Below, piece by piece: positions 12,411 to 60,955 of a DNA stretch of 64,000 bases. The translations under genes were made by a program, and so were the position numbers. How positions within the stretch are numbered: position 1 is the first letter of the stretch; the number at the start of each line of letters is the position of its first letter. This DNA is from Diprion similis (taxonomy: Eukaryota > Arthropoda > Insecta > Hymenoptera > Diprionidae): the NCBI RefSeq assembly GCF_021155765.1, contig NC_060112.1, positions 20,150,001 through 20,214,000 on the forward strand, read 5' to 3'. The notes below the pieces were generated by a model. That model worked only from the letters and a program-made list of their open reading frames with translations, was not told the DNA's origin and did no database searches.

Positions 12411-13593
12411 TCACCCTGCGACCATCGGAGCTTCTGCAGACTCGTCACCTGTTGTCATCTCCCACAGTTCCGGAGATTGTTCCAAAGCTCGAGCGAAATT
12501 CTCCGGTGACCAATACTCGTTATCTGCGAAAAACGTATTGTGCATTAGGTATATCGAGATAAACCGCTATTCGAAATCGAGATTATTTCAGCGGAAGCGT
12601 ACCTTCGGCTCCTGAAAATTGTGCGGGTTGCTTCGAGTACCAAGGTGAGGAATCGGCGCTTTTTATCGGACACTGAAACAGAAGGTAAAGAATTCGACAG
12701 CCCTTATATTTGCCTCTCACTTTCAGTCCGCGGATATAAAAACATCGATTTTCTATTTTGGTTCAAGTTTGATGGTCAATCGAATGACGAAAGCTGGTTT
12801 TAACGTATAGTTAAGGATGAATTCAGATACCGATGCATATTCTCCTCTCTTGCCGAAACACCGTAACGGACGATCAGATTTCTTCAAGAAGAATTCTTTG
12901 TTCATTCCACTTCTCCTGCCGATCCTTGGCACGTTTTTAGCCGCCTTTAAGAAAAACGTCGGAAATTCATCCGCCTCGACGACGCTGTTTCCACCCTCGA
13001 AGACGACGATCAACGCCGCGACTAGAACGACTGGAAAAAAATTAAAATTTTTCACGGCGAAGAAATTCGCGAGTTGAGTATACTTATAACACTTGGCACG
13101 ATATTATCTTGCAGGTGTTTGAAATTGAAACTAGCCGCATCCAACCCGATTTCGCTCAGTTCAAAGCCGAGAGATTCACGAGTAAGTAAAAAAATTATTC
13201 ACATTCGTGATTTGCAGTTTGGTCATTGCACTGTCAGCTCGGACTCCATTTTGTGTAATTTACACACTTCAGTACGGAGCGTTAAGAACCAGTAAACGTT
13301 ATAGTTTGTCCACTGTTTGTTCTTTTATTTTTTGATTTTCAAGCTTTGAAAAATAAAACAGGACAAAATCACCGTTGGATGCATTTTTATAAACATCGGA
13401 ATATTGAACGAGAAAACAGCGCGATAAGCAAAAACCGCGAAAATCCAAATCTTTACACTTTGTGCGACTGCAGATTGCATTTCGTAATATAATTAATTGG
13501 CAAATTTTTGTCGTTTGTACAATACAATTATGAACACTCACCAGTTGCTAGAAAGCTGTGGACAGGACTTCGTAGGAAGCAGTTTAGCATCAT
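12411..13593 (-). CDS. ETH: Ecdysis triggering hormone (ETH) precursor
   Basis: This neuropeptide precursor is made in Inka cells. ETH acts on CNS ETH receptors to start the ecdysis motor programme. Coding exons (minus): 13593-13542, 13030-12831, 12672-12603 and 12523-12411. All junctions are GT-AG with consistent phases, giving 144 aa. Residues 1-37 form a signal peptide (hydrophobic VVLVAALIVVF core, cleavage after VVEA). Residues 38-54, DEFPTFFLKAAKNVPRI, followed by GRR, are a typical amidated ETH (FFLK...PRI-amide). Residues 58-76 form a second peptide with FFLKK that ends RPLRCF before GKR, instead of PRX-amide. The C-terminal part is an acidic/aromatic spacer (EYWSPENFARALEQSPELW). The start is ATGATG with CACC before it; the first of the two ATGs was chosen. 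An upstream acceptor at 13612-13614 suggests a further noncoding 5' exon. Confidence 0.9.
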
Positions 13594-16294: not shown

Positions 16295-16389
16295 TCCTTC
16301 GAGCCGGATTTGAACCAGCGACCTATGGATGTCTCTTTCTGCTTCATGCCAACTACAGTCCACCGCTCTACCAACTGAGCTATCGAAGG
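16295..16389 (-). tRNA. tRNA-Tyr(GUA) with a 22-nt intron
   Basis: The reverse strand folds as a complete cloverleaf. Acceptor stem CCTTCGA pairs with TCGAAGG (discriminator A), D arm GCTC...GAGC, anticodon stem GTGGA/TCCAT with one G-U pair, loop CTGTAG plus A, variable AGGTC, and T arm GCTGG-TTCAAAT-CCGGC. The anticodon is GTA. A 22-nt intron (16331-16352) sits at the canonical position 37/38, as is general for eukaryotic tRNA-Tyr. CCA is not encoded, as expected for a nuclear tRNA. Internal A and B boxes look intact, so it is probably functional. Confidence 0.97.
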
Positions 16390-19825: not shown

Positions 19826-22800
19826 TCTCTAGACGAAAGCAGGAAATTCATTTTTGGAGAAGAATCTCGTTTTGCGGTTCATAATTTTTTTTTTTTCAAT
19901 TTGAATGAGCACTCATGAGTCATGTGTTTGATTTTAGTCAATCGGTCTTTTGAAACAGCTTACACTTACAAGTATGGCGTAAAAACTTTGAAGAAACGGT
20001 TGAATTATATCGACAATAAAATTTATTTTAAAGCAAACGTTTCTGACTTCATAAACCACGTGTTCGACGGCCAAAAATGCATTTTATCAAAACTCTAATT
20101 TCAAGTACAATCATTTGTAATATTGATTGGATACTAATGTATGCACGTCGTAATTTGAAAGCAAGTAAAGCTAGAGAAGCATGTGATAGGAGTAAAAAAC
20201 TACTCCAAATGTAGTTACTTTAAGCTCTAGTAAGAAATGGCTAATAATATATAAGTTTGATGGACATCGGTCGTCTCGAAAGAGCAGCCTGTGTGAGAAA
20301 ATGCGAATCAGACTCATTCTACCGAACTCGGAACGAGCTACATCGGGGAATCGTAATTAAATTTGAAAGCAAAGCACGGTAAGCAAAGTGGGTAGATTAT
20401 AAAGTGTATTTGTAGATATAGATCTCAACGCCTATAATATGTATGCATTGGTATTACACAGGTACATTTTTCCATACCAAATTAGATTCACACCATAAAT
20501 TTTTTTACCTAAGACATACCTATATTATACTTACAGATATTATGTATAAATACAAGTTGATCATAACGTTTTATAACGTAATTATTATAACTATTATATC
20601 ATCGTGAATACAATATCATTATTACCAAATACAGCATATGTTTCACATGCACGGATCCCTAGCATCTACGTATTATTGTCGCGTCACAACTTTTGAAACG
20701 GTGTACCGTAGCTTATAGACTCGCAAGCGTTTATTTTTTATTTTTTACAATATCTCTTTAACGTATTTATTACAATAACCATTAAACACTAGAAACACGT
20801 GTACAAATAACTTATGTTCTCAACTATCAATATTATAGGTACGCAATTAAAACTTGACGTGTACGAGCAGATTTTTCACGACGTTTGAAAGCGCGTCTCA
20901 CACTGATTGCTTATATTCTTACTGACTATATACGCAAAAAGTTACCATGCTGAGGTTGTACAGTGAAAAATTATTTCACAAAAATGTTCGTTATCACGAA
21001 ATGTTGCGTTAAAAATTCCGATATTACGAAAGGTGAACTCTCGTTAATAACCATATTTTTATAGGACAATTTAACACAGCAAAGAAATTCAATTGCATAC
21101 GTAAAATTTGCGAAACAGCTCAGATCGAAGATTTGAGATGTTGGATATGCTGTTAATCATAAAGGTAACGAAAGAACGGATTGACCTAGAGTACAGCAAT
21201 CTTAATTACAAAATTACGAATTATGTCGTAAACTATCAATGGAAGACAATGATTTTGTTTATAAATTTATATACGCATGTGTAAAAGCTACCAGAGAACT
21301 TAACGTTACACGCCGATCAAGCCTATTTACAGATTTTACCATAACGCAACACTCGTTTATTATCATCGAGTATTGCGATCGATTACATATTATTGCATAA
21401 TACACATATCGCACACTTAAGTCGCGTTCATACGATCAATGACCAAGTATTTAAACGTGCGTTGCACGCTGCGGCCGGAAGTAAAAACATGGCTATTGCG
21501 ACGATTGCACACGTGGTTGTCTACCAAGACGCCTCAGCGTTTCAAGTTAATTGCATTATATCTGCGTCTATTTTGGTTCCATTGGTATAGCTATACAATC
21601 GACAGAGAATATCGGTGAATCGGTTTTCATCGTGCGAACTGAGCTTACAGTGTAGAAATCCTTAAACTTACGATATAATATATTATTTATGGCTCCGACC
21701 GATCGATTTAAGAACGGTATTACCGTTTTAAAAACGCGTCTAGTCAACAGCCATAGCGTAAAATTGCACATCAGCATCCAACCCATTTCACAATTAAATA
21801 TGATACTTTGACAAGGTGCGCTTAACATTATTATACACTTATACATGAATCGCCTTATTATTTTAACTCCATTCTATAATTACAAAATCAGCGTTGTTTA
21901 CATTACACTTGGCTCTGGATCAGATTAAAGCTTATCCATGGTCAGCGCTATATTGATGCCATTCGGAACCGGATTCAGGGATATCAAGACTGATTTAATT
22001 CATCGAAAGATTAATTACTCTCGCACTCTGTCTGTCGCAATGTGACACTGGTTTTGGGTTACGAGCTGCTGTTCTTGTGCCCGAGTTCCAGGCGAACAGA
22101 CTCGAAGCCTGCATCACTCCGGGTACTTGATTCGGTTACTCACAATGATTGACACAAGTCGACTGTCGAGGAGAGATCCTGCACTCAGAAAAATGTTTAG
22201 TTTTGACAGTAAAAAATTTTTACCCTAAACACATTTCAGGCTTAATATACGACCCGCCAAACGTTTTCACGCAGCAACCAAACAATTAATCTAACTATTT
22301 TGCCCACGAAAGAGAAAAAATCTTAGTTCTGTCTAAGAAACGGTCTTACACTGCAATCCCATAGATTCTGTTGCGACTGCAAAATCAAGTGTACACGGTA
22401 GAATGATTTTGTATAGAGATTGACGAACGAGTTTTTTTACTCACAGTAAATGAGAAAATTATCGTTCGATTGTAATTTATGCTATGTGAATTAAATGCTA
22501 CATCAAACAATGACAAAGAAATATATCGTTGTGAATTGACAGACGGATTCGATGGTGCTGGACCACGTATGATTTGATTAGACAGATGCTTGGAGCCCTT
22601 CTTCATAACTGTTCATATTACTTCTCTAGTAAGAGTATTTCACCACTTCAAAAAACATTTTGTAAATTTACGAAGTAACATGTTTATTTGCATTCACTAA
22701 ATTAAAATCGAGATTTCGTTTTTGTAGGTACCTATAGTTTATTCAGTTTATATGTAATTTAATATTTATATATTTTTTGCAATTTTAAAACAATTATTTG

Positions 22801-23011
22801 ATTAATATTCCCAGTACAATATTTTGTACAAGATACTTGTACAAATTGATTATTGAAAAAAGCAAAAAGTTGTCTCTGAGTGTGGATTCGTACAATAACA
22901 AAGCGTAAGAAGAGTGTTAATAACGTTGCGCGTTGATACAAGCAGTCTCGAAAGTTCCGTTTATTTCCAATTTAAGAAAGTAGCACAGTGTTTTGCTGAT
23001 TGCATGATGCA

Positions 23012-23030
23012 AGAGAGAGAGAGAGAGAGA
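23012..23030. repeat. (AG)n microsatellite
   Basis: About nine uninterrupted AG units about 210 bases beyond the 3' end of the Cys-rich gene. Confidence 0.95.
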
Positions 23031-23241
23031 ATTTGAAAATGGCGAATAACCGCGGTCTTGACCAGCCGCGTGATCGTAATATTACGCTACGAGATATGTG
23101 AATTCATGTTTAGGTACGTTACACAGAATTTCTTAAAAACGAACATACGTCAACGATACACGTGATTCATACGTATGGAAGGACGAGAGGACGAGTTCCG
23201 ATCTCCCTGCCCAGGGATCACGACGACGTCCTCAAGCTCGG

Positions 23242-23805
23242 TTAAGGGATGATGTCGCAGTTGCAGGCGAGCCCGCCATTTCCCCTGCTGCATTCCTCCT
23301 TGCAGAATTTCTCTCGGTCAAAATCATCGCCCGCGGCAACAGGAGTAGCAGCGTCGTTCTTCCCGGCGTCGCGTTCTCCGATGACGTCACTGGTCCCCGG
23401 GACGCCACGTGCTCCGGGCCTCGTAGCGACCGACCGATGACTTTCCATCGGCAGAGAAATCGTCTCTCCGGAAATCCCGCTTCCACGGCACCCGGAACAT
23501 CCGGTCGGCCGCGGCTCGAAATCGCAACGGGAATCGCATACCGTTTGACTCTTGGTCGCGGGCGCCGCGGCGTCGACGCCGAGATCGGCGACGTCCCTCT
23601 TTCCCGTAACGGTATTCGACTGACTCGCGGATTGCCGACGGCTGGTGCAAAAGGCCTCGCAGGGCTCGCCGACGAGACCCGAGTCGCAGAGGAGCGCGCA
23701 GTCGCCGGAGGCGGAAACCCCATTCGTCCGCGTCGCGGCCACCCCAAAGCTCGAATGCAGGAGCCCCAGCAAACCCAGAAGCAACACCCACTCGCCTCGC
23801 GTCAT
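23242..23805 (-). CDS. Secreted protein with three CX3CX8C repeats, unrecognised
   Basis: I do not recognise this 187-aa protein. It starts at an ATG lying immediately after a perfect acceptor (CATTTTCAG), so at least one noncoding 5' exon exists upstream. Residues 1-23 form a clear signal peptide (VLLLGLLGLLHSSFG). The twelve Cys fall into three groups with identical core spacing: C36/40/49/53, C90/94/103/106 and C168/172/181/183, that is CX3CX8C then a fourth Cys after 3, 2 and 1 residues. Linkers are Ala/Gly/Ser-rich, and one holds a potential processing site (GKR, 68-70). The C-terminus ends CNCDIIP at TAA. GC content is far above the surroundings. It is likely an extracellular disulfide-bonded protein or peptide precursor; function unknown. 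Confidence 0.8.
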   Translation of the reverse strand: MTRGEWVLLLGLLGLLHSSFGVAATRTNGVSASGDCALLCDSGLVGEPCEAFCTSRRQSASQSNTVTGKRDVADLGVDAAAPATKSQTVCDSRCDFEPRPTGCSGCRGSGISGETISLPMESHRSVATRPGARGVPGTSDVIGERDAGKNDAATPVAAGDDFDREKFCKEECSRGNGGLACNCDIIP

Positions 23806-24112
23806 CTGAAAATGATGGTAAATCAATACCGAGCGGGACGCCCGCCTCTTCCTTTGCCTTCGTCGGCGTCGCGACGCCCGCCGCCTCGGAATTTCGAAAC
23901 GCGAGCCGCACGCCGGCTTTTGTGCAATACCGCAAATACGTCTCCTTGTTCAAGCTGTTTGTCAGGTTATCTTGTGAGGCTTTTAGGAAAGTCCTTGTCC
24001 CAATCTTTCCATCCTGCGCTTATTGGGAGATTAATTTTGATACGAGAAGGACAGTTTATTCTGGTTATTCACCGCTTCTTCTGGTCATCTTACTATAGGC
24101 ATCGTTGCACTG

Positions 24113-24384
24113 TTAATCCTTGTTTGACATTCTGGGGTACAAACGACCCCACGATTTTTCTTTATTAATTTGGAGTACCTGAATCTAAAAAAATCTATTT
24201 ATTGTCTTGTTATATGTATAACCCGTATAGTTTGAAAAAAAAAAACCTTTTCAGAGCTTAAAAAAAAAAATTTCAATCGTAACTATTTAATAGTTGATTT
24301 TTCATAACGATTTTTGTCCCTGGGATACGAACTACTTGAATGTCTCAATTACGTGATTATACAGAAGTGTGTCAAACAAGGATT
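24113..24384. mobile_element. MITE-like element with 15-bp terminal inverted repeats
   Basis: AATCCTTGTTTGACA at 24115-24129 is matched exactly in reverse complement at 24370-24384, bounding about 270 bp. The left end overlaps TTAA (24113-24116), the target of piggyBac-type transposons. Next to the left repeat is a TGGGGT...ACCCCA hairpin (24133-24151), a frequent subterminal feature of such MITEs. The right flank reads TTCA, not TTAA, so the site may have decayed. It has no coding capacity. Confidence 0.5.
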
Positions 24385-25206
24385 CAAAATGTTCGTAAAT
24401 TTTCTACACGTTTACTACACAAAAGTCTGGTAAAGGGAAAAATTTGGTGTTTGAAAGTGAATTACTAAGCATTGTCGTTAAATTTACAAACAATGTTTTT
24501 AATTTTCCTTAACTTGGTTAGAGAGACGTATAAGCGTATTTTGAATTCACTAAATTGTTATAATAAGTTTGTTATATTTGTGAATTTACCACATGTACAA
24601 AAAAATTCGATTAGAGTCTGTTAAAATCAAAAATCTTTTATGGCTAAAGGATTAAATGTACATCTCCATTAATTTTGCTCTGCAACCTAAAAGATCCCAT
24701 AACTGAATTCGGAAATCACTTATGTGGACTTTAAATTCCATCGTAGCCTGATTTTCTTAAAAGTAGTCTGAAATTTCTTAAAACTGAGTCCTAAAATCAC
24801 CCCGGAGCATTTTAGTTTCGCTTCATAATATGTCAAACGTACTGTAATTAAAAATTTTCTCAACAGTTTTTGTAAATCACAGAATTTCCTTTGTGAATCT
24901 ACTCAACTCGTGCAAATATTAATTCTATACAAAATCCTTAACAATATCAGATTTCGGCAAAGCCCAAAGAATTACCATGTAAATTTTGGAATTAGTAATG
25001 AAATTTGCAATTTGTGACAATTACACCGTAAATTCACTGATTAAATTGGAATCGTAAATAGATTTTTGAATTCATTTAAAATTGTATTGTACATACGAAT
25101 TCGGAAAATATCTTATTCATAAGCTAGTGTTCACTTTATTATCTATAATTTCCGGGGGCACCGTCCATTGTATTATCAATCAAATAAAGTCATGATTTCC
25201 GGCATA

Positions 25207-37689: not shown

Positions 37690-40600
37690 ATGAGTTCCGA
37701 AAACACGTACGCGCTCTCCAAGGAGCACTGCAACCTCAAATACTCAGGTAAGATATCGTCGCTGTGTGCCAATTAAAAAAACAGTCAAAAACCAGAATCC
37801 TGCCATTTTAATTGGACGTCAAGGTAGGATAGTTGTTTATATTTCGTGCACCATTGCAACTTTCATGAGTAGGTATGGAAAAAAAATGCATTTGAAATAG
37901 TGCACGTTACCAATTTTTCTGACACTTGCTTTTCGAAAAAGTGAATACATAATAAGACATCGCGAGAAATTCCATCCCGAAGAAATTCATTGTCATCCGT
38001 TCAACTTCTACCCTCAAGGAATTCGTCGAAACAGATAGTCGTGCATCGGTATGATCAAAGGATGCGGTTGATTGCTTCCCGGCCACAAAAGCCGCGAGAA
38101 CCACAGAATCTAGACCATGAGGCCGCGGTGTTTCGCGGTTCTTTTATCCCCCGGATTCAGAGGATAAAACGTGAATCTGATCGGTCGTCTGTCACATCAC
38201 TTGGCAATTATAAATTAAATGAAACCCGCATGAAGTGTAATTAAACAAGAACTGACAACCAACGTGAGCGTTCATAATTCCTCGTCGCTTCGAAATTGCT
38301 CAACAAGTATAGGAATAATAATACGGCCATGGCTCAGGTACGGGAAAAATTCATTACACGTTTATAATTAAAATAAAAAAAGAAAGAAAAAAAACAACAA
38401 AGTAACTAGTGGAATTGTTTCGCAAACACGGAATAAACCCTCTCCGGTAAATTAATTACGGAAATTGTACGCGGGTTGAATCCTAGTTCGATTCACTCAA
38501 CGGTATAATAAACGAGAAACTTACAAACCGCGTCGTTTCTTGGCGCAGCCCCTAATTCTTACAATATTGTTCTGATTTGTGGACACAACGGGTTCGCGAC
38601 GAAGTGAACGGAAGGGTGCATAGTAATCGCGGATTGACTCGAGGGGGGATCGCGACGTCCGGAGTGTGCGGATGGATAGATTACAGGCCGCAGGGGATCA
38701 GATGCCAGCCATCCTGCAGCCTCCGGAAGGGGTCCTCGGGCTGTTTTTCTGCAGGCACGCGCCACGGTGACAAAAGTCGACGCGAAGGCGGGGAAGATTT
38801 TTGATTTTCTCACCTCGCGTAGCGACATTTCATCATTTTTATACAGCCGAAGAGCAACGCCGCTCGTTACTACGCAGAGTCTTTCAGCGCTGGACCTTAA
38901 AACTCGCGCAACCGGTGAATAAATTTTTTTTCTAACTGATGCGCGATCCTCGAGCTGAGTAATCCTTCCACGGATTATTTCAAGCTGGCAATAATTTCCT
39001 TAAGCAGTTATTATAAATTACCTTTATTAGTGCCCCTTTCTCTCGCGTTTACGGGACTAATTCGGAGTTAACATCCCTCCGATGGAGTTTTTAATTAAAA
39101 AACCGTCTATACGACGACCATCTGCGCTCACGCTGAATTTATATAACCGAGGGTTGCAAAATGTATACTCTGTAACTGCCGTACGTGGCATGGATTCCGT
39201 GTAAAATACTTCGGCAAAAGTGCTACGTTTGACGAATGGATCGACGTCACGTCGCTGTTGCAACATCCATTCCGGGACTTCGAAATATATTGCAAAGTGA
39301 AGTATTTCAAGCGCTCGTCGAGAGTATGCAGTCTGAATATACGAGAACGACAAAACGAATAGCGATACTTTCGAATTCGAATTTTAACACTCCAATTTTC
39401 GGCCGATAATTGTTTCCCGTGGATCAGCCTAATGATGGCTCAAAGCTTTCGGATCGCAGGCGCTGGGCTTGACGAGGTTTTAAAAAAGCTCGAGGGGAGG
39501 CGAGAGAGACTCGGAGTCTCTTCCGGGAGAAGGCGGTTGATCGCGTTTATCCGCTGGTTAGACAAGAGAGCTCGTTCGACCCCGGGAAAACGGGGCCCGC
39601 CTAATCCTGTCCATCAATCTATCTCCAGCATCCCAAGCCTGATATTTTCTCGCTCGTATAGCTGCGCTTCGGGGTCTAAAATTTGGGGTGCACGATTGAT
39701 AAGCTCGCGAGGAATCGGAAGAGGAGCTGCTGCAGTGCAGTTGATGGTCTTTGTACCCTTTCCCGCTGTTCTTTTGGCGGAATTGATTCCAGTATAGCTC
39801 GGAGTCTGTCTTCCGAACCCAAACGGTTATCTGCATCAGATATCTCGGGTCTTCCGGCCTTGCGATAGTAAGGAAACTCACACCCATCGTGAATCTCTGT
39901 TATATGTTCGAAGCTTCCGAGACGTCTAGAATTTCCTGGATATCCAGGGACTCTAGTGCGGGATTATAGTAGAGAATCCATGGGGGGACCCCATTCGCTC
40001 ACCGCATGGGAAGTTTATCGTTTTCCTTAACAAAGTGGACAGCTTCATCCAGCGAGGCTAACCCGAGGCTAATTGATAACTCACCCTCACTGCTGGTGAA
40101 ACATTTTATTTTTAAACCGGAAAAGCTTTTCTACTTGCAGTCTCGGGCTTGTGAAATTTGCTTCGATAAAAAACACTCGACAAAGTTGAAAACTGAAGTT
40201 TCTTTATTCAATTGCGTCGCGTGAAACTTCGGCTGATTTTTTACTAGAGACGCAGAAGTGCTTTTTTCACTCTCGGAAATCACTGTAACTTCATTTTTCC
40301 TACGAATGCACTTCTCGCTTAGTTACGCTTGCGTATCTAATTGTGTAACCCAACCTTAATGAGAGCATGTTGAATGTATTAGTAAAGATAGTTGGGATGT
40401 GATTTGTTGAAATTATGGAAAGGCAAATACACCATGGATCGTCCTACGGTGATGATCGGACTTTGGAAGACACGCGGATATCCTGAAGATCCCGGATGAC
40501 GAGAAAGAAAGATGGGAGAGAATGAGAGTGAAAGAGGCAGAGAGATGGTGTCATCCCACCAAACAAGTGAGAGTGTGTAAAATAGGTCTATACTTTCAAT

Positions 40601-43600
40601 TGTTTGATGAGGTGAAATCATTCTAACTTACCACGAATCACACTATAATTATGGTATATGTATATTATATACATTATTATGTATAGGTAGGACCGACGTC
40701 ACTCCTGTAATCACTTGTTCGTAATTATGTGTGTTTTATTCAAAATTTTTATACTCCTATAATAACATGCCTACTTTATTGTGGTAGAAACGATTTCACT
40801 TGATTGACAATTAAAGCAGTACACCTCATTTGAATCAGTCCTTACACCCCGTAATGATACCTTCGGTTTTTACCGATGCATGAGTAGAGTTTACATGGTT
40901 CCAGAAATCAGTAGTACGTAGATTTTCCTCCCTATTTTCGAGAAGTTTTCAGTCCTGAGTTAATCGCAGACGGAGATTTTCTGTCCACGTGTTCGCAGAT
41001 ATTCTGCCACATAATGTCGAGGGATTCCCGGCGACGAAGGAGTTCCTGATGAAGGTCGTCGACATCCTTATTGACTACGTCAAGTCGACGAACGACCGGA
41101 ATGCCAAAGTCCTGGAATTTCAATACCCGGCCGATATGCGTCGTCTTCTGGATCTCGAGGTGCCGGACAGCGGCGTCACCCTGCAGCAGCTGCTACTCGA
41201 CTGCTCGACGACACTCAAGTACCAAGTCAAGACTGGTAAGTCGATATCTAATCCCATTTCGCAGCCGATCCAATTCGGAGAAGGTATTTTGAAAATTCAG
41301 CATATTTTCCGACTGATCTGAATCGATCCTTTACGACTCGGTCGACATTGAGATCTTGATGTAGGTACGATATTCTCTGGGATCTATGATATTCTCGAGA
41401 TAGCCGGACTCGCTTTTTACGACGCTATCTTCTCCGCCCGATTATCACATTTATCATGCTTGTATATTTTGAGGGTGCGACCGCGGCTTAGCGGCCCTTA
41501 TCTCCGCCACTGCATATGCTAAATTGAATATGAAAGTACGCCGCTTATCTCCGGCGGCGAACGCGTGCGAATTAAAACAGAATCAACAGCTCTTGCCACC
41601 GCCGTGTACATACATAACACCCTTGCTCTTCCCTTCTTTCAGTTTGGCAATCACGCTGCGCGAATCAGGCGTCTTCCGCGTCCGGACTCTGCACAGTATT
41701 TTTGCATTAGGACTAACCAATTTATACCCTCGAATTCACAGACTGAATCTCGGCAGCGCGATGTGTTTTGTAATGATGTTTGTAAGCGTGAACAAAATCG
41801 TGGCACTTCATCTATCAAGGCGACACCACGAATGTGCCACAATCTCGGTTATATTAAATTACAGAGCTCAATGGATGCTAATACACAATAGCGCAATAGT
41901 CCCACGCACCCCCGTTCAACCCTCTCCCCGCATACGAAAGGCACGGCATTCGGAAGTATACCATGGGGAAGAAAGGCGAGAGAGAGAGAAAGAGGGAGAG
42001 AGCAAAACGAACGGAGATGAGCCGCAAGCTTTGGCCCCTCTCCCCCCTCCTCTTCGACAACACCATAGAAATGACGCGTGCCCGATATACGGGCCAACAA
42101 AAACTTGTTATCAGATTAGGTACCCCTGCATCGAGAGTCCTCCGTGCACCGATATTCTACCCTCCTTTCGATCTTTCATTTGCCCCCTTTTGTCCGAAAT
42201 CCCTATTTCTCTTCTCCGCTTTCTCGTTGAACGCGGACAGCTGCTGTCCAATATTGATTTTTCAATATTCCATCATCATAGTTTTTGCGGCACAAGTGTG
42301 AGGCAGATACACGTAATATACGTCGACGGATATTAAAGATCGAACCCACCCGCGGGGGTCGTGCCGCGATAGGCTCACGATTACGATGAAGATTGGAAAA
42401 CTTTTGGCAGGCCATGAAGAAAAAAAGTAGCTGCCATCTAGAAGAGCGCGCTAAATTTTTATCCGATCGAGAAGTATTCTTGCCAGAGAGAGAAATTTCT
42501 TGTTGTATTAGTTACGTCATTAGGTATACCTATACTGTCCTTGATTACTTTCATTTTTTACCCTCAGTGAAAAATATAACTCTAGGTACAGAATGAAAAT
42601 TATTTTTTTAGATATAACTAGAAAATCCAGTACGTGTTATAATATTCTTTTTGATTAAAGTCACTCCGATTATATATATACATATATTTCCTTGTAACTA
42701 TTGCCATACTTTGATAATGGTACAACGATAAACTGATATCAAGGTCTGACTTGACTAAAAAAAATGTAGTCAACTACCGAAGAGAGTTTCGACTACGATA
42801 ATTACATTCAAATGTTACTCGTGCCATATTTGTTTATAATTCGAATAATATTGAAACAATCATCGTAATGATACTCATTTTAATAGAACCTTCTAGAATA
42901 TGAAACTGTTTTTCGGTATTGCCAATTACGTCGAACAAGACTCCATTCGTACTGGAAATGAATTTTTCGCTCGTAGTTGTCGTTGTTTCTGCGGCGGAAT
43001 TCGCAAACCGATTACGGTGGACAAAAGCGGAGTATTTTCTATCTAATTTGGCCAGTTCAGATTACTCTGGGGGTCCGCCATCTCGGCTGGCAAAGACCTG
43101 TTCGAAGCAGGCGCAACCCCCTGAGCGCAGTCAGTCCACGGTAACGGCGTGGTGATAAATTGGGGGCTTAGGATTTGTATGAAGAGAAGTGTGTAACCCC
43201 GACTTAGCGTTAATCCTCTGTAATCAATCATATGACTTGGAAAACACTACCTCGAGGTAGATTTCAATATGCAGTAAACTGTTATATATATACATACACC
43301 CACATTCTTTCTCAAAGCCCCTCCAGAGACCAACTGCGGAAGACGTGTAGTCCACGGCACTGGAATGAAAATTCAAAGTGTACAATCCTCTCGACATTCC
43401 GCGAGCTGCTTTCCGAGTTTTCCACCTTGCTAATGAAACGTGGTATCAGTATGCTCGGAATGTCCTTGCAAAAATTTTCCTCGTGTGCCTGTCATGTAAG
43501 GTTCATATGTCTGGGATGTGGAAAGTCTAATTGCACAGTTCGGAGTCTTCGTCGTTATAGGAAAAGCCAGATGTTGTTTAAGAGGAAGTCTAGATCGTTT

Positions 43601-46600
43601 CCGCGACTGTTGGCCTGGCCATCACGCGACCTGAGCATCGGTATGTGCGAAAATCGGAATGGCCCGGAGGTTTGAGAGCCTCTGCAAACAATCTAGTGGT
43701 GCAGCGACGCGTGTGACGCGCAAAATGCGGGTGCCTCGGCCCATCAACCCTCGCTCCCTCTTGCTCCCTTGGCAGAAAAAGAAAGAAGGAAAGAAAGGAA
43801 GAGAGGAAGAGTGGAAACCCCTTGGATGCCGAGGTCCAGGACCCCTGCCGGACGCGTGCCCCGACCCGTCAACCGAGATAATTGCAAATAACACTGCAAC
43901 AAACGGCTCAAATACCGCCGCCCGACCGACTCGATATCCTCGGCCATTTGTATCGGCCCGTTGCACCCCCGCGCTACATGGGGTGCAGCTTAAACTTGAA
44001 GAATTCCACGCGTGTCTAAAGCGCGAGACAATTTCATACGGGCGTCCCTCGCTCTCGTTGTCTCTCTCTCTCTTTTTGAATCCCGGATGTGAGCACGTGT
44101 TTTTCTGATATTTGGCTCTGAACGCGATCGCTGTTTCAGTGACAAGTTAAATCCCACCCCTGACTCTTTGGATCAGCGCTTTCATTTCACGGTATAACGT
44201 CATCACATCCGCGAGCTGAGAATACTTTCCGTAGAACTTTTGACTTCATCCGGTATCGCCTTTTCTTTGTATGGTCAAGACAACACAGTATAGTATCCTG
44301 ATTTTTAAACACTAGAATACAAATCTCAATTTTGATCTGCCACTTCATTCTTTTACGTATTTCCATAATCCACTCATGGTCAGGTGCGAAAGCAATACAA
44401 ATTTTTTAGCCTTGATGCGGCAGTACCGAAGTGCAACGTTTAGTGTATTTGCACACAGGGTGCGCGATGCAGGACCTTGCACACGTGGCCCTGGTGGTCG
44501 GTAACCAAATTCAATAGGATTGGTGTAATTAAGAGCCATTTCTACACGATTTTCTCCCCCACGAGGGTTGCGGACTGCGGAGCGAAACGGTAAATAGGGG
44601 TTCGTTTTATGGCGACAAGGATAGGAGAGGGTGGGTGGAGGCGCGCAGCCCCGATCCCCTCGCTCAATATGGCCTACGGGGGTGCCAACCTTGCACCGCT
44701 CGGGAATTTAAATCGGCATTAATAATTAGCCGGGCTGTTTGTTTCGGAGGGTTCGAGAATATTGAATGTAACTTTGGGGAATGGTTTTCACTCGGAAGCG
44801 GCACCTGTTCCTCTCTCAATTCCGGAGCGTTCTCGGCGAACTTGTTAAGCTGGACCCAAAACGCGTCAGCGAAGACGGAAGATAATATTTTGATACTCTG
44901 AGAGCAGCTAGTCGCTCATCCCGTCCCTCGGCAGCGAATTAACTCGACTGAGTGACGTCGGAGCGTTTTAATCTGGTGGAATTACGCCTTGATTGACACG
45001 TGACGGCGAGACTCTGGCACCAGAGGGGACTCAAGCCCCTGAGATGTGCCACGATGCAAGAATTCTCATACTCGCGGGGAATTCGCCAAGTGCAAGATGT
45101 TCGGACGATTCTTATCAAGCGGGTGAACCTCCTCTAGCCACGGTTTGATCTGCTATATTTTTTTCTAATTTGTCAGCGCTAATGAGATTCAATTAGTCAT
45201 GGCTGGCGCTGGGGCTTCGGACCAAGTTGACAGCGGGCGCCCCGATTGTTCGGAAAAACAAAAGCCCTTTTTCCATTATATCCGCCTACCTTTTTGCCCT
45301 TTCACTCCGTTTGGTCGGCGCGATATCTGAAAATGGATCGGGTTGCTCGCGAAACGCACGTAAGCCGGGGTTTTCGACCCCCGCACAGAGGCCTACCATC
45401 CCCCAGGTTCTACCGAGGGCGCATTAACTTGATCCCTGACACGCTGTTCACCCGAGCGAGTGACAACGTACTCAAAGAACTTCGCCTACATACCTACTCA
45501 ACGTGGCTGAGCACTAATCTTCACTGGCTGCTAGGCGGGCGTTTCGGAGAGTCACGAATGCGCTACACCTATTTATAATCTAGGAACGCGTGCCTGCGAT
45601 CAGCAGAACCGCGAGGCAATTAATTATCAGCAGAATCAAAATACCCGGGATACCAATCTCACGGATTGTCATCACGCTCGGTGACACGAGATGGGGTCGA
45701 TGAAAAACCCTCCTGGAACCTCTATAACTACATTTTAGGACACCCCCACTTCTTCAACCAACTATCTTGCGGCTTGGACTTGGTGTCGATGGCCGGCGAA
45801 TGGTTGACTGCGACAGCCAACACGAACATGTTCACCTACGAGATAGCGCCGGTCTTCATCCTGATGGAGCACATCGTATTGCAGAAGATGCGCGAGATTA
45901 TCGGCTGGAATTGCGGGGACTCGATCCTTGCGCCCGGAGGTTCTATCAGCAATCTCTACGCGTTTCTAGCGGCTAGACACAAAATGTTTAAGGATTGCAA
46001 GAAACACGGACTGGCTGCAATTGGGGGTCAGCTAGTGATCTTTACATCTGATCAAGTGAGTTGAACGGCTTTGCCACCTTTTTCTATCCGAAATTCTCCG
46101 GTCTTCTTCAGTGTTTCTATTCCCTGCTCACAGTCTCACTACTCGGTCAAGTCGTGCGCAGCCGTTTGCGGACTAGGAACCGACAACTGCGTTATGGTAC
46201 CCAGCGATGATCGCGGTCGAATGATCCCGTCCAAACTGGAGGAGCTTGTTCTCGAACGGAAAGCCAAGGGCCACATTCCGTTCTTCGTCAATGCAACCGC
46301 TGGCACCACCGTCATCGGAGCTTTCGACCCGATTTCCGAAATCGCCGACATATGCCAGAAGTACGATCTCTGGCTCCACGTGGACGTGAGTAATTCCTTG
46401 GTTGTTTATTGCGAGCTTTTCACGTCACTGAAGAATAACAAGATATGCAGTCGCTTTGGCAGATCAGATTATTCAAATGTGGTACCTCCTTTAATTTCGG
46501 ATAGAAACGCCAAACGCGTAAGCTCTTTAACGTAAATAATGAATGTGGGAATGAACCTTGCTGTGCTGCAGCAGCAACAGGAGCGAAACTTGAGGGGACA

Positions 46601-49600
46601 TGGAAAGTGCTCAGGGCAAAAGTTGTCCGATAAATCCACGCGACGAACACACTTGCATTGAAATTATAGGTTTTCCACACCTTTGTTCATCTCCTCTTTG
46701 TCCTTTCTGCTTTCAGGCGGCGTGGGGTGGCGGACTGCTGCTGTCCAGGAAGTACCGGCATCCTAGACTGACGGGAATTGAACGGTAAGTACATAGTAGT
46801 TTAGACAAGTTTTCAATGAATTCCAGGCAAAAGTTCAATGAACATCGATAAGCCATCCATCGATTTGCATACACTCGGCGAATTGATAATCTGAGCAAAT
46901 TGACGTGTTGTGTTTAGTAGTTGCGGAGATAAAGCGCACTCCGTTAAATAAAGATTAGAAAATTATCCAAGGAAAAGCATTGCAGGGTAAACATCTCTTT
47001 ATGCTAATGTAATTTATTCGGAAAGCTTCTTTGCCGTACGTCTGCGGGGAACCTTCTTGATCCTGGCAAATAGATCGCAGCCCTATTTTATAATGCACAT
47101 GCATTCACCAACGGCGCAACGACTAGGCCGACACAAAGTCTGGCGAGAAAACTCTTAGGACGCAGGTTGCGGCAGCCATTGCCTGAACTGGGAATGCATC
47201 GGGCCTAATCCAGGTTTTATAGTTTATTGGGGATTACTTTGATGGAGTCGCCTCGAGTGTAATATACTTTCTTCCTCGAGAGAGGCGTGAGTTCCCGATG
47301 TGGCAAGATCAATACCCTTTCCCAAAGGCCGCAGAACACTCGGGGTTCGAAGCTGTGCGAAAACATAACTTTGCATTAGAATAGCCGAGGGTGCAGACGA
47401 TGTACCGCTATAAGTGCTGCTCGCGATCATATTTTTTCGATAATAGATTACCCGCCATCGAAACCACCATCGCCCTACAATCTTACCTCCGTTCTATCGC
47501 CAGTCTCAAGGGTTTTTACGAACTCTCGTGCTGCCTTGGGCTCTGTATTCAGAAAAAATGGTCGACCTTCGGAATTAGGGTAAATTCAACTTCTGCGTTT
47601 CTGTGAAAAATTAGATAGGGAACTGGGAACTGGTCAGCTCTTGTGCATCTCTCCAACAGAAGTACAAAAGGTCTGCAAAGCGAAATAAAGACAGAAGGCG
47701 GATGGAGAGAGAAAGAAGCGAAACGGAGACAGGGGTTGCATAGTCGGTACGAAGATAATCCCGAGCGAAAAGAGTGTTGTAATCTGCGAGGACCGAGGGC
47801 GGAGTGACTCCTGCCGTCGGCACATGCCAGCATTCGCATCCGTGCCTCCTTTATCATCCTGCTCGGTGGCGCGGACGGCGTCGTTGGGGTCAGAGTGGGA
47901 ACTGAGGACGACGGCGTGGGGCTTCCGGACGGGCGAGATTAATCCGCGATTTGCATCCCTGTACATCTGCGCCCCTTACGCAACCGGCCAAGACAGTCCC
48001 TGCATGGACTTCAAACTGCAGCCTCAGTGCTCCCCGGGGGCTATTGGACCCAGTTGTGTCCTTAAGACTCTAAGCGGTCGGTGTAGAAATAAATCTCAAT
48101 CGAACAGGGGTTGTGCCTCACCATTCCTGCCGCTTCTCCAAAGCTTTATCACTTTTTCTCTGCATAATTTGAGCTTTTTTCCATGCCGGGGACAGTGGAT
48201 CGTATGGATTGTGATCAGTTAGAAATTTCAAATGTGAGGCGCAGTTTGCTCGGAGTGATTTGCTCCGACTGTACCGCTCGAGGAACTTCCTAAAAGTCTC
48301 TTGATTAAAATGGCAAACGGAACACGGAGGCCCGGAACGGAGCGACGTGTACGGTGATATACACACACATGCACACACATACACACCAGTGGACACAACA
48401 GCTGGCTCCGTTCCCGGGAGTGCATTTACGGGTACAGAAGTTTCCTCTTATTGACATTTCACTGTCACTCCGTGCCCTCCAGTAACTACAGATACAACAA
48501 TGCCTTCCAATCTTTCACAAAGAACTCCGCTTCCTCTTCAGTTGTCTGTTGAATAATCTGCAGTTTTTTTTTTTTTAATACTAGTCCAAGCTCCTGTAGA
48601 CTTTCCACTTTGAATACGCCAATCGTAAAGGACAATTACAGCTAGGTAATTAGGTAATTTTCAGCAAATTTTTGGACGAAGGTTAGGGAAGAAGCATGAT
48701 ATCTGGACTGATTCACTGATAAAGCTTGTCAAGAGGTCGAAAGCCAAGGTTCGCTCTGCGGCTTACATCAGTCGAACAATGCTGTACCAGATATAATCGC
48801 CTCGTAATATCAAAGTACAAAAGAAGATGCGAAGTGACTAATGGCCGAGGCTCGTCCGGCTGTTGCGGACGTGAGCTTCTCCAAGCGTGCTTCAAATCTC
48901 GAGCGCTCTCTGTGCCATTTGGTGCATAAACCTCCGCCCTCACCCTCGCCTACCAGTGTCAGCACGTCGGTGTGTGTGAGCACTTGAATACGTGTTTCAC
49001 GTCTGTACACAAGTCCCGAAATCGGGTCCAGGGGGATACGTGTCAGTTGCCATGCTATATCAATATCATCCATCATAACACGTGTGTATTATTGTTGTCC
49101 CGTATATCGCCTACATTCAAGCAACGTCCCAACGTTGCGTCTGACACGAAGCCAACTCATGGATCTCTCCTGTACGACCAAGAGTTATTAGGTTTATAAT
49201 TGATTTCAATTACCAGCAATCGTGTTCTATTGTCATCAAAATTCATTGTCAGCTTCTTCCAACTTTTCAGTAAATCGCTTAATTCGTATCGAATTTTTGA
49301 CTCTGTTCCACATCCAATGCAATTACTTGTACTTGTGATTTGGTAAACAGTTCTTGCACTTTCCGGATGAAAATTTAGCCTTCGCTGTTGAGTCTGGAGA
49401 ACATTGGCGCAATATAAAGCCCCGGTGATTAATGCCTTTCACAGCTGGGACTGGCGCATGCCTCCGAAAGAACAAGGGCCGGGGTGACTCCCCGCCATAT
49501 TATTTTGGACGATATATTATGCGACCCAACTTCTCCCGGGGATGCTAATTACCCATTTCTATTCACTCTGATTCGATTCAGTCTCAGAAATGTCGCGCTG

Positions 49601-51581
49601 AAATCCATGCCAAGCTTCAGCTAATGTCCCGGTTTCATTTCACCTCCGGTCGCTAATCGCCTGCAGTATTATTTCTCCGAAAATCACGGAGCTGTTGACT
49701 CTTTGATGACCTCAGGAAATTGGAAGAAATTTCTAACCAGAAATTTCCAGAATTGCGATCTGTCGGGTGTAGATTCTAGTTCATTTATCTCGGAAATAAT
49801 ATCCCACGAAGCACCTGACACTGTTTGGTGTAAACGAGAGCTGTGGTGAATGGAAAAACCATCGAAGAGGCCTCATCTGGCCGTCAAGCGTTGATCCAGT
49901 CCTCGGGGAACGCATTGCGGATAAAGTATGGGATATCTTCACCCCGCACCACAGGGGTCCATCAATTCAGGCGAAGGGCTATTAATACAGCTCCAGAAGG
50001 CTTCCCCCATGGTTTTGGTCGGAGTCCATACCCCATACCCCATGGCGATAAGACCTTCTGGTGGAGCAACCCTTTTATCCGTTTAATCCCGGCTCCCCCG
50101 CAAACAACTGATCCAAATTTGTCTCTGATTTACCGTTGCGTCTAATTTCCGACACCTCCTCTCGCCATCGTCTCTGCCCTTACACCTGATGTAAACCCAC
50201 AAATACGAACCCTGCTGTGTTCTGTTTCAGAGCCGATTCCGTAACGTGGAACCCGCACAAGCTCATGGGGGCCGTCCTTCAGTGTTCGACGATCCACTTC
50301 AAGGTGGACGTAAGTACATGTGGCATTTTAAGTAGCCAGTAGATCCCGACTTATGGCTTTTCAGTGTTTGGATAAAAACCCATCGGTTGAACAACCGCCC
50401 GGAGCATTCCCGTGTCAGACCTAACAGAGAATATTGTGCTAATGTTGACGTGACGTAAGCTCGAATACTTGGCGTGTGTCTTGTATTCCAAAGGGGTCGC
50501 CGTCAGCCAGCGCCCGGTACCATCGAGCACACCGAAGGAATTTAATTAAACTAACAGATAACATATGTTGCCGCCCTCCCGCCAACGAGTCAGGGGAGGG
50601 AACCACCCTCCAGCGCAGTTATTGCAGAGTCGGGAAACTTTCCCTCGCGCGCATATTAAAATTCCGTACCTACCCACCATAGGCTGCTCCGCTGCTGCTC
50701 CCTTCTACTTTTGCTCGGCGCAAACGAGGGCAGCAAAATATTTTTCCCAGCTAGGGAATGGATTCGCCGTTACTGAGGACACGACACGTCGTGCAATTTC
50801 TCCCGATGTGCTATTAAATCCATAGTCAGGGCATTTGACTTGAGACGAGGAGAAGATACGTGTCGATTTTTCCCGTCGTCTTCTGATTCTAGGGTCTTCT
50901 GAATGAGTGTAACAAAATGTCTGCCGAGTATCTCTTCATGACCGACAAGTTATACGACCACCAATACGACACTGGTGACAAAGTGATACAATGCGGTCGT
51001 CACAACGACATATTCAAGCTGTGGCTGCAGTGGCGTGCAAAGGTAGAAATCTGAGCGTCGGTCTCGCTGCAATGAAATTATTTAGTTTGTTAGAAATCGG
51101 GTGATTAGCAGCCTCCGGGACTTTCAGGGTACCGATGGATTCGAGAAGCACATGGACCGTTTGATGGAGCTCAGTGAGTACATGGTAAGACGGATCAAGC
51201 AGATGCCCGACAAATTCTACCTCATCCTGGAACCCGAAATGGTCAATGTCTGCTTCTGGTACCTGCCGACTCGCGTTCGCAACATGCCGCACACCGCCGA
51301 AAGAGAAAAGATACTCGGCAAAGTAAGATTGTCCTTTAAATTACGACTGTTTCAGGTAACCTTTGACTCGGCTAATCTTCCTTTTCCTATTTTAACCTCC
51401 GTCGTAGATTTGCTCGAGTCTGAAGGGCAAAATGATGAAGGCCGGGACTCTGATGGTCGGTTATCAGCGTGATGACCGAAGAGAGAACTTTTTCAGGAAC
51501 ATTATTTCCAGCGCTGCTGTGACGGAGGCAGACGTCGATTTCTTGCTAACGGAAATGGATCGACTCGGACACGATCTTTAA
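37690..51581 (+). CDS. Gad1: Glutamate decarboxylase, PLP-dependent
   Basis: Cytosolic enzyme converting glutamate to GABA and CO2, the GABA source in inhibitory neurons. Nine coding exons: 37690-37747, 40999-41235, 45739-46055, 46134-46385, 46717-46784, 50231-50309, 50893-51042, 51128-51322 and 51408-51581. All junctions are GT-AG with matched phases. The protein is 509 aa, against about 510 in flies. Landmarks: [20 protein letters not shown] (substrate-site region), [24 protein letters not shown] (the Asp pairs with the PLP pyridine), and WNPHK with PLP lysine K321. The C-terminus is [20 protein letters not shown]. The N-terminus ([13 protein letters not shown]) lacks a long extension, as in insect Gad1. 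Introns 1, 2 and 5 are long (3.3, 4.5 and 3.4 kb), others short. An upstream exon offers an alternative in-frame start. Confidence 0.97.
37748..40998 (+). other. Gad1 intron 1
   Basis: 3.25 kb intron. The 38.5-39.9 kb part is GC-richer than the rest and has an open frame of 121 codons (39432-39797 plus) with no recognisable content; this may be a regulatory CpG-rich segment. No nested gene supported. Confidence 0.5.
41236..45738 (+). other. Gad1 intron 2
   Basis: 4.5 kb intron containing an unusually long open frame (ATG 41530 to 42336, 268 codons; see findings), a GA-rich tract at about 41968-42005, a second purine-rich tract at 43776-43816 and GC-rich stretches at 43.6-45.4 kb. No nested gene is recognised. 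Confidence 0.5.
46785..50230 (+). other. Gad1 intron 5
   Basis: 3.4 kb intron. It contains a (CA)n-like stretch at about 48359-48386, a T12 run at about 48564 and several overlapping random open frames. No gene supported. Confidence 0.5.
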
Positions 51582-55681: not shown

Positions 55682-58392
55682 ATGAAATCTTTCATCGAAT
55701 ACTCTCCGAGCAGTGATTTCCCCTTGGAAAATCTCCCCTACGGAGTCTTCTCCACATCGACTAACGTAAGTACCGCCAAATAAGCATCTGTCCATTGCCA
55801 GAGACCACTGGTCGCTAAAATCTTTGAGCGAATCGCTGTTGCCAAGCGACTGTTAGTCGCTCGCTGCTACCGCAGAATCGCGAGTCGCTAGTGCTTGTTA
55901 GTCTTATGAATGGTCTCAGAGCAAACGAGCGCGCATGTGTTACGCAACCTTGTTAAAGCCTCACCCACTAGTCGCTGACTCTACTCTTAGGCTGGCAATG
56001 AACATGACCGTGTGATTACGCTGCGTAACGGAAACAAGAGGAGTTGTTTTAACGGAAATTGAATCGCTGATTTCGTTTCTGCGTTTCAACGAACCGCCTC
56101 GGTATGCTCTGGGAAATCAGAGCTTTGCAATTTCATTTTCGCAAGCCCAATATTCGCTTACTGCCCTCTGTGATTGGCCCTACATGTGAAACCAGCCGAA
56201 TGTCCGAATCCATACGAAGGTACATGCTGAAAGCTTGCGGCATTGCAACAGTAGCCTAACGCATCGACTCAGTTGTGAACGGCTGTTTTACCAACGGAAT
56301 ATCACCGTTGGATATCTTGCCGGTAATTCTCTGGTGAACGGAAAATATTTATCCATTGCAGCCCGTTAAGAGAATAGGCGTCGCGATTGGGTCAGAAATA
56401 TTGGACCTCAATGCAGTGGCTCATCTGTTCACGGGTAAAATTCTTGGAGGAAAGCAAGATGTGTTACGTCAGGAAGCCCTCAATGACTTCATGGCACTTG
56501 GCAGACCCGCTTGGATCGAAGCCAGATCCACTCTGCAGGATCTACTCTCAGTGGACAATCATACCTTGCAGGAACCGGAAATACGCTCTAAGTAACCAGA
56601 AAATTTATCCGCTAAACCTATTCCGCTGAAAGGCTGTGGAAGAAGCTTGAACTGATAATTTGTTAACTAATTTTTATCGCTTTTGTTTGGAAAATGAGCG
56701 TTTGTCCAAAATTTGCATCCTGCGTTAAAAATGTTTGAAATTATTCAGATTGAAGCCGGCACAACAATTCAATCACTAATCTATTTCTTCAGGCATCTTT
56801 ATACATAGTTATGCAGACTTATCACATACTTTGTTCTGGACCTCTGCATTCAACTATCAAACCAACATTATTCTATCTGCATTTTTCTGTTTTCTCAGAG
56901 TATTCGTGCAGCAAAGAGACGCAGTGATGCATCTCCCAGCAAAAATAGGTGATTACACAGACTTCTACTCGTCGATTCACCATGCGACTAACGTGGGGAC
57001 AATGTTTCGTGGAAAAGAGTCAGCTTTGATGCCAAATTGGTAAATTCCGTCGCAGGAAAACCCCTTAATTGGATCGAGCAATAGCCCAGTGAAAGCTGAA
57101 GCTTTCTAACTTGTGATTCTGTTCAGGAAATATCTTCCGGTTGGGTATCACGGAAGAGCAAGTTCGGTCGTTGTTTCTGGGACGCCTATCAGGAGGCCGC
57201 GGGGTCAAACACTTCCGGTCGATGGGGCTGCCCCCGTCTATGGTCCATGCAGGCTGATGGACTTCGAACTGGAAGTCGCCTTCTTCGTCGGAGGGCCGTC
57301 AACCAGACTGGGAGAGAGTATACCGGCCGCGAAGGCCTACGACCACATATTTGGAATGGTGACGATGAACGATTGGAGCGGTAGGTAATCCGCGAGTATC
57401 GAGAGAAGGTGGCTTGGGCAAAAAGGGAACGATGTTCAAGCTGAAATCATGCTTTCTGTAAACAGCCAGAGACATACAGAAGTGGGAATACGTTCCACTG
57501 GGTCCATTCACAGCCAAGAATCTCGGGACAACGATATCTCCATGGGTCGTTACAATGGAAGCCCTCCAGCCATTCAAAGTTCCAAACATGCCACAAGATC
57601 CGGTCCCATTTCCCTACCTGCATCACGAGGGTTCCTGCAACTTTGACATCAAACTGGAAGTTGATATCAAAGGTAAAGTTTTACACGGAATTTTTGGTCG
57701 AAAAAAAATGGTCTCTTCTAAATGCTTGTCTAGGTCCGGAGGGCATCGCTACTACTGTGACTAGGAGTAATTACAAATTCATGTACTGGACGCCGCAACA
57801 GCAGCTTGCTCAACACACCGTGACCGGATGCAATTTGAATCCTGGTGATCTGATGGCGTCTGGCACAATCAGTGGCGAGGTATGGTAACAGATCCAATAG
57901 TTTTATGTCGTATTTTGCAAGTCTAATACCGCTTTCCTCTCGCAGACGGTAGACTCTTACGGATCAATGCTTGAGCTCAGTTGGAAAGGAACGAAGCCGG
58001 TACCCCTGAAAGACGGAACTGTCCGAAAGTTTTTGCAAGATGGTGATGAAGTATCGATCAAAGGTACATGGATAAAGTTCTAGCATCGTTATTTGAAAGA
58101 TATTCGAGAAGAAAAGTCTTCAGCACTGTGAAACTTTAATTTTGAACGCATATTTACGATTCGAATGGTGTGTAAGGATTTGAGAAATAGGGATCGCTTT
58201 ACTTGGTATTTATGATCGTTGGAGTTTAGACCCTTAAAAACCTGATCCAAATGCGCGGACACTTATTGAATATTCTTCACCTGCACAATTTGTACGATTC
58301 TTAAATGCCTTTTAGGTTTCTGCGTGGGTGACGACTATCGGATTGGCTTCGGACCTTGCGTCGGTAAATTGTTACCTACGAATCCCGAATAG
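55682..58392 (+). CDS. FAH: Fumarylacetoacetase
   Basis: Last enzyme of tyrosine catabolism, hydrolysing fumarylacetoacetate to fumarate and acetoacetate in the cytosol. Eight exons: 55682-55765, 56362-56591, 56899-57039, 57127-57380, 57466-57672, 57734-57879, 57946-58063 and 58316-58392. All junctions are GT-AG in phase, giving 418 aa (human 419). The N-terminal SH3-like domain (residues 1 to about 118) is followed by the catalytic domain. Metal and catalytic residues are in place: D126 (GDYTDFYSS), H133 (HHATNVG), E199 and E201 (FELEVAFF), D234 (MNDWSARD) and K254. The C-terminus is [18 protein letters not shown], close to the family consensus. The start is the only ATG in the first exon and yields the conserved [13 protein letters not shown] motif. 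An AATAAA lies at 58472. Confidence 0.98.
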
Positions 58393-60040: not shown

Positions 60041-60153
60041 AATAGCTTGACTGAAACAAAGAATTATCTGCTGTTCTTTCCCTCAGCAACATTATTCCAA
60101 ACCTTCCGAAGTATTCTCACCCCTTTAATTCACGCGTTAAACTTGTCCCAGTA

Positions 60154-60955
60154 ATGTCTGCCAGCAGGCCAACGGCGCGATGGAACGTTCCACTGAGCGA
60201 TGGAATTCACGTGGTGGAATTTGAGCATGGAACAGCAACAGGACGTCGTGTCGTCAAAATAGATGGACAGACCCTCATTCACAGGGACTGGATGTTTCGA
60301 CTTGTGGGCGACGAAGTTGTCACGCTGGGAAATACCAAGTTCGTTATCTGCGTCGATCCTCTCCCGGGTACGCAGTCTGTCAATGATGATAGCTCGAATT
60401 CAACATTGGTATTGAGTCACAATCACGGTTCCAAAGTCCATAAAACTTTCCAGGTTTGAGGTACTCCTATACTCTGCTGGTGAACAACAAAACCTATGCA
60501 AATTTCATACAGTCGCAGTCAAAAGTTCTTCAAACTTGGTTGACGCAGGTTGGAGAACAGCACTTTCGGATCGTCCTAGGTAAACGAATTTTCTTTACTT
60601 TCGCTCATGAACTTTCTCGTGTCGAATCCATGGTCCAATATTACAGATAAGGCTAAGCAGAGCGTATGGATCAATGGGGAGCAAATTGACGTTGAGGTGA
60701 GAAAGCTCTGTGAAATAATCCTGGGAGAAAAAACAACGTCCACATCAAACTGTCACCCTTACATTTCAGAACGAATTTGTCGACGGTGGTGCGGAGATGT
60801 TGTTTTCCGTTGGAGGAGCGCCGGCTGTCATTAGAGCTCTCAGTTCGGGACACAGAACTACGGGAGTGAGCCACACGCTGTTCTTAAACGGAATCGAGGT
60901 CACCGAACAACAATTACTGCCACACATGCAAACGAGAGCGAGAGAGAAGAAATAA
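60154..60955 (+). CDS. FAIM: Fas apoptotic inhibitory molecule 1
   Basis: Conserved cytosolic protein of two beta-sandwich domains. In vertebrates it protects against Fas-mediated death and stress-induced protein aggregation; its insect role is not well defined. Four exons: 60154-60367, 60454-60579, 60647-60696 and 60770-60955, giving 191 aa. Family signatures: WNVPLSDGIHVVEFEHGT (residues 10-27), GRRVVKIDG, DWMFRLVGDE, the YTLLVNNKTY...QTWL segment, FRIVL, and NEFVDGGAEMLFSVG in the last exon. The start is the first ATG, 6 residues before the conserved region. The stop TAA lies inside an AATAAA, so poly(A) addition may follow closely. It is on the same strand as FAH and the ciliary gene on either side. 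Confidence 0.97.

Follow-up and report, generated by a model that had tools for sequence, protein, structure and literature searches.

What kind of product, if any, is encoded by the 187-residue reading frame that lies on the minus strand of a GC-rich island in the Diprion similis genome, within the 64,000-nucleotide stretch of NC_060112.1 analyzed here (positions 20,150,001 to 20,214,000; hereafter the window)? Annotation easily overlooks short, secreted, cysteine-rich proteins, which often serve as signals, inhibitors or structural linkers. Based on the arrangement of its cysteines and its hydrophobic N-terminus, we propose that the frame is an insect gene, of which one copy was found, for an orphan secreted protein in which three two-disulfide modules are carried on flexible linkers and bind a partner outside the cell, a reading that we consider reasonably probable.

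The protein contains exactly twelve cysteines, at residues 36, 40, 49 and 53, residues 90, 94, 103 and 106, and residues 168, 172, 181 and 183, with none outside these three clusters. The preliminary description had reported an identical CX3CX8C spacing with a last gap that falls from 3 to 2 to 1, and the translation of the frame confirms it: the cysteine gaps are 3-8-3 in module 1, 3-8-2 in module 2 and 3-8-1 in module 3. Each module holds an even number of cysteines, and the modules are separated by linkers of 36 residues (modules 1 and 2) and 61 residues (modules 2 and 3). The coordinates of these and the other features of the locus are collected in the table.

Table. Features of the reading frame and its surroundings, in coordinates of the window.
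Feature	Coordinates	Strand	Remarks
Coding sequence, 187 residues, including the stop codon	23242..23805	minus	ATG 23805..23803, stop 23244..23242
Predicted signal peptide, residues ~1-24	23734..23805	minus	from hydropathy; cleavage site placed by inspection; helix 4-17 in a poor model
Module 1, CX3CX8CX3C, residues 36-53	23647..23700	minus	
Dibasic RR, residues 56-57	23635..23640	minus	
GKR, residues 68-70	23596..23604	minus	candidate cleavage and amidation site
Module 2, CX3CX8CX2C, residues 90-106	23488..23538	minus	
Module 3, CX3CX8CXC, residues 168-183	23257..23304	minus	followed by the last four residues of the protein
3' splice-site-like sequence ending in CAG	23806..23830	minus	abuts the ATG; by inspection
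AATAAA	22960..22965	minus	276 bases downstream of the stop; three more AATAAA/ATTAAA follow, all four within 900 bases
Glutamate decarboxylase gene	40959..51469	plus	divergent from the reading frame; Pyridoxal_deC; open frames recognized, not exact exons

Such spacing is far beyond chance, and composition does not produce regularity of this kind. When residues 25-187 were shuffled 200,000 times, three matches to CX3CX8CX(1-3)C never arose, two arose once and a single match arose 741 times. With any gap values allowed, one shuffle in a second set of 200,000 yielded three quartets of cysteines that had their first two gaps in common. Across all six frames of the window, CX3CX8CX(1-3)C is matched at three places, each of them within this frame. 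A look-elsewhere test, with a criterion chosen after the pattern was known, asked for stop-to-stop frames of at least 60 codons in which three runs of consecutive cysteines, none overlapping another, agree in both gaps. The frame of the 187-residue protein was the only one in the window to pass, and no passing frame occurred in 2978 simulated windows (second-order Markov, 1-kb blocks) or in 121,516 bases taken elsewhere in the genome, for the most part from protein-kinase loci.

The N-terminus points to the secretory pathway. The maximum of the 12-residue Kyte-Doolittle average is 2.17, in the segment starting at residue 7, and segments starting at residue 26 or later reach at most 1.21. Together with the twelve-cysteine pattern, this predicted signal peptide makes it probable that the 187-residue protein is secreted, as had been suggested. 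The CAG that abuts the start codon resembles a splice acceptor and suggests a putative untranslated exon upstream of the ATG. Downstream, the nearest AATAAA is weak evidence by itself, as the surrounding DNA is AT-rich.

Do the three modules descend from one? The preliminary description had proposed the triplication of a small disulfide module, which finds no support as it was put, the modules having only their spacing in common. With the three cysteine codons left out, DNA identity over C-X3-C-X8-C is 8/33 between modules 1 and 2, 11/33 between modules 1 and 3, and 6/33 between modules 2 and 3, and no similarity was detectable in this interval over shuffled sequence (p of 0.81, 0.17 and 0.92, respectively). 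Given likeness in spacing alone, the modules may reflect either an old, fully diverged duplication or convergence on one spacing, and a triplication may at most be inferred.

The protein was described as matching no known family, and comparisons with Pfam, NCBIfam and the PDB, which returned nothing usable, agree with that view. Profile searches of the protein and its modules were run against Pfam: the 187-residue protein gave no match at E<=10, and the modules searched singly gave nothing apart from a DSL match to module 1 below the threshold (E 0.062; 14 bits against a cut-off of 24.2). This match spans no more than the first 22 positions of a 46-position profile and is taken as chance. NCBIfam likewise gave no match to the protein. 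Two viral-family Pfam matches of the longer frame (E 0.28 and 7.7) fall in an arginine-rich stretch upstream of the ATG, and a PDB sequence match to an antibody light chain (E 0.29) aligns across a linker rather than with the cysteine modules as such. Viral contigs and prokaryote genomes were scanned by pattern, a method that detects close relatives only, and none of one and none of 51 pattern matches, respectively, was confirmed. A literature search limited to the pattern and to strings found neither of two cysteine strings from the protein nor any of four invented variants of them. Where the context of a published CX3CX8C string was examined, it belonged to unrelated proteins, and nothing on a protein of this kind was found.

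The modules resemble known small disulfide scaffolds, and the protein satisfies the definition of none of them. Alpha-hairpinins carry the motif C1-X3-C2-Xn-C3-X3-C4, and their plant precursors are described as having a signal peptide and several tandem modules; the same paper holds that the cysteine pattern cannot be used to classify them (PMC7191063). Module 1 fits the C-X3-C-Xn-C-X3-C arrangement of the alpha-hairpinins and of the kappa-hefutoxin-type fold, a cysteine-stabilized helix-loop-helix. It is the only one of the three modules to do so: unlike alpha-hairpinins, module 2 closes with CX2C and module 3 with CXC, and no sequence match was found in Pfam or the PDB. In a low-confidence model, module 1 forms helices at residues 34-41 and 49-60; the CS-alpha-alpha fold consists of two antiparallel helices joined C1-C4 and C2-C3.

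Module 3 recalls two further scaffolds. Its CX3CX8CXCD string resembles the first half of a Somatomedin B domain (PF01033), which when complete has eight cysteines. The second half is missing here, since the protein ends four residues past its last cysteine. The Somatomedin B profile gave no Pfam match to the frame at E<=10, although the search itself works, as the profile has three matches at other places in this genome. The succession of CX3C and CXC in module 3 is also what we take to be the core pair of the cysteine-stabilized alpha-beta, or defensin-like, motif. Unlike such peptides, each module has only four cysteines, the low-confidence model contains no strand, and there is no Pfam or PDB match.

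Structure prediction adds modest detail. An AlphaFold model of the whole protein, made without relatives, is poor (mean pLDDT 46.7, pTM 0.17); in addition to the helices in module 1, it has helices at residues 4-17, in the signal peptide, and 164-173, in module 3. Residues 61-160 have block pLDDT values of 31-45 in this single-sequence model, and the linkers are of low confidence. Modeled alone, residues 151-187 form one helix over the CX3C of module 3 and no strand, again with low confidence (mean pLDDT 62.3), and comparison of this module-3 model with PDB folds gave no match at E<=10, a result that says little at such model confidence. From these models, a helical CX3C clamp is plausible.

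We propose the following model for the protein, in which secretion, disulfide pairing and binding are inferred from sequence features. The predicted signal peptide would route the protein through the ER, and two disulfides would close within each module. The CX3C pair would lie on one turn of a helix and be clamped to the closing pair, with its spacing of 3, 2 or 1, while the linkers of 36 and 61 residues would remain disordered. The mature protein might consist of three small disulfide knots strung together flexibly, and bind an extracellular partner. A cut at RR or GKR might free module 1, leaving modules 2 and 3 joined.

This last step borders on a different reading, in which the protein is a prepropeptide: the bioactive product would be module 1, released at GKR (or RR) and amidated as a two-disulfide neuropeptide or peptide hormone, and the rest would be a spacer or a second, longer product. 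The hydrophobic N-terminus provides the signal peptide of an insect prepropeptide, as judged by hydropathy only, and the GKR that had been placed in a linker is indeed there, following RR after module 1. Insect prepropeptides have basic cleavage sites flanking each peptide; here, the basic pairs are confined to the interval between modules 1 and 2, with none between or after modules 2 and 3, and no peptide is repeated. With the pairs so placed, the usual dibasic route frees module 1 at most. The earlier suggestion of either a processed peptide precursor or an extracellular disulfide protein thus holds in part: a secreted cysteine-rich protein is probable and a limited cut that frees module 1 is possible, and a precursor of three like peptides is unsupported. 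A peptide-hormone-like exon on the minus strand, at a distance of about 10 kb, would fit a prepropeptide, although closeness to another peptide gene is weak evidence. Overall, we consider the prepropeptide unlikely.

This neighboring exon-like frame resembles that of ecdysis-triggering hormone (ETH). It (12756-13103, minus strand) encodes a hydrophobic stretch followed by FFLKAAKNVPRIGRR, which is near the published ecdysis-triggering-hormone motif (PMC13279319). In a second copy, EFFLKKSDRPLRCFGKR, the usual PRI end is replaced and the sequence ends in CFGKR. No start codon precedes the first copy in this frame.

Could the frame be no gene at all, having arisen by chance in a GC-rich island? 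The island noted in AT-rich DNA is real: GC content per 100 bases is 0.58-0.69 over 23200-23900 and 0.18-0.50 in the flanks (22600-23200 and 23900-24500). CpG observed/expected is 1.41 in the island, which would suit a chance frame, though it is 1.25 in the whole window. At such composition long open frames are common, with stop-free frames of at least 187 codons in 382 of 1000 random islands, so the length of the frame carries little weight. Open frames of 189 codons, of 210 codons (minus strand) and of 343 codons overlap it. The last of these, at 23137-24168 on the plus strand and antisense to the frame, we take as a by-product of the GC-rich composition.

Codon usage decides little. The training set consisted of 12,449 codons, taken from open frames in the same genome at 30 protein-kinase loci, some of which are matches with internal stops. 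Over its own span the frame ranks first of six, barely: it reaches 0.026 nats per codon, and two plus-strand frames reach 0.013 and 0.000. From stop to stop, the 235-codon frame that contains it scores -0.007, below the 0.002 of the overlapping 210-codon minus-strand frame. The total for the frame is 5.06 nats, to which module 2 contributes -1.87; antisense to exons of glutamate decarboxylase (GAD), totals of 7.10 and 6.93 were obtained. Among Pfam-matched frames, a GAD frame scores 0.014 per codon (156 codons), and totals range from 2.88 for FAIM to 17.69 for a coiled-coil gene. The score separates genes poorly, and the codon bias of the frame is weak and unspecific, as a chance frame would have it. 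With length and codon usage discriminating so poorly, it is the cysteines and the hydrophobic start that carry the case for a gene. Composition does not explain the regularity of the former, and the latter begins at an ATG abutting an acceptor-like site. The viral and prokaryote scans that found no relative might also be held to favor a chance frame, though this outcome is as expected for an insect gene. We regard it as highly probable that the frame is a real gene, and a chance origin as quite improbable.

What is the relevance of glutamate decarboxylase as a neighbor? Pyridoxal_deC frames were recognized at 40959-41318 (below the curated cut-off), 45624-46061, 46065-46532, 50893-51051 and 51086-51469, and the best solved match of the frame at 45624-46061 is human GAD67. 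In the Drosophila literature, CG14989 is described as sharing the promoter region of Gad1, being transcribed the opposite way and being enriched in GABA neurons. The minus-strand frame with plus-strand Gad to its right reproduces this layout of a neighbor transcribed away from Gad1, and it is conceivable that the frame is the positional and functional counterpart of CG14989, a secreted protein of GABA neurons, which would be compatible both with our preferred model and with a prepropeptide. CG14989 is named GABA-enriched in one study (PMC7286294) and serves as a GABA marker in another (PMC9001676), and 13 chosen ORFs between 30.8 and 40.7 kb gave no Pfam match at the cut-off.

Against this counterpart relation, the first Gad frame recognized lies about 17 kb from the frame, which is not a shared promoter. 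An intervening gene is possible, as the scan comprised 13 chosen ORFs at 30.8-40.7 kb and none at 23.8-30.8 kb. A short plus-strand frame just before Gad (40456-40623) scores 6.32 in codon usage, a fair value, and matches TSP1_CCN below the threshold (E 0.012); it may be part of Gad or of another gene. CG14989 has been counted among genes for chitin-binding proteins (PMC6277126), its chromatin peak shows no significant difference between dopamine and GABA neurons (p = 0.1; PMC9001676), and it is reported to change in glia (PMC9616736); a fly atlas does not mention it where Gad1 is discussed. Our frame matches no chitin-binding family in Pfam, including the CBM_14 (PF01607, peritrophin) profile, and none of the 87 CBM_14 matches listed for the genome falls in the window. 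Compared in this manner, by description and position only, orthology with CG14989 is in our judgment as doubtful as the counterpart relation itself, and we hold both to be quite improbable. A mitochondrial intermembrane-space protein, considered for the twin CX3C of module 1, was dropped in view of the predicted signal peptide.

Within its own genome, the proposed secreted protein stands alone in the searches made. In a search of the 269-Mb genome (60 contigs), the full 187-residue protein gave a single match at E<=0.001, and module 3 as query gave a single match at E<=10; these searches score the best candidates only, so that one copy means one found. The genome carries insect markers, the Osiris genes and TTAGG repeats: a single stretch of contig C2 holds 30 of the 31 Osiris (DUF1676) matches, and TTAGG telomere repeats run from the start of contig C1. 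Other features of the window include a minus-strand tRNA gene (16295-16389), which at 95 bases is longer than usual and perhaps contains an intron, and, on the plus strand, fumarylacetoacetase exons (56338-57761), a FAIM1 exon (60055-60456) and a CCDC113/CCDC96 coiled-coil gene (62647-63345).

The most specific version of our proposal would make the protein a lineage-restricted secreted signal made by GABA neurons, composed of three different two-disulfide microdomains with a common CX3CX8C clamp and a closing spacing of 3, 2 and 1, and encoded beside and divergent from glutamate decarboxylase; we consider this very improbable. If the protein is merely a lineage-specific orphan, its interest is modest. 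With an ETH-like hormone exon on one side and glutamate decarboxylase on the other, the position of the gene raises the question of co-expression with Gad, and its regular arrangement of three modules, unmatched by any family searched, recommends the protein as a candidate for a novel extracellular scaffold.
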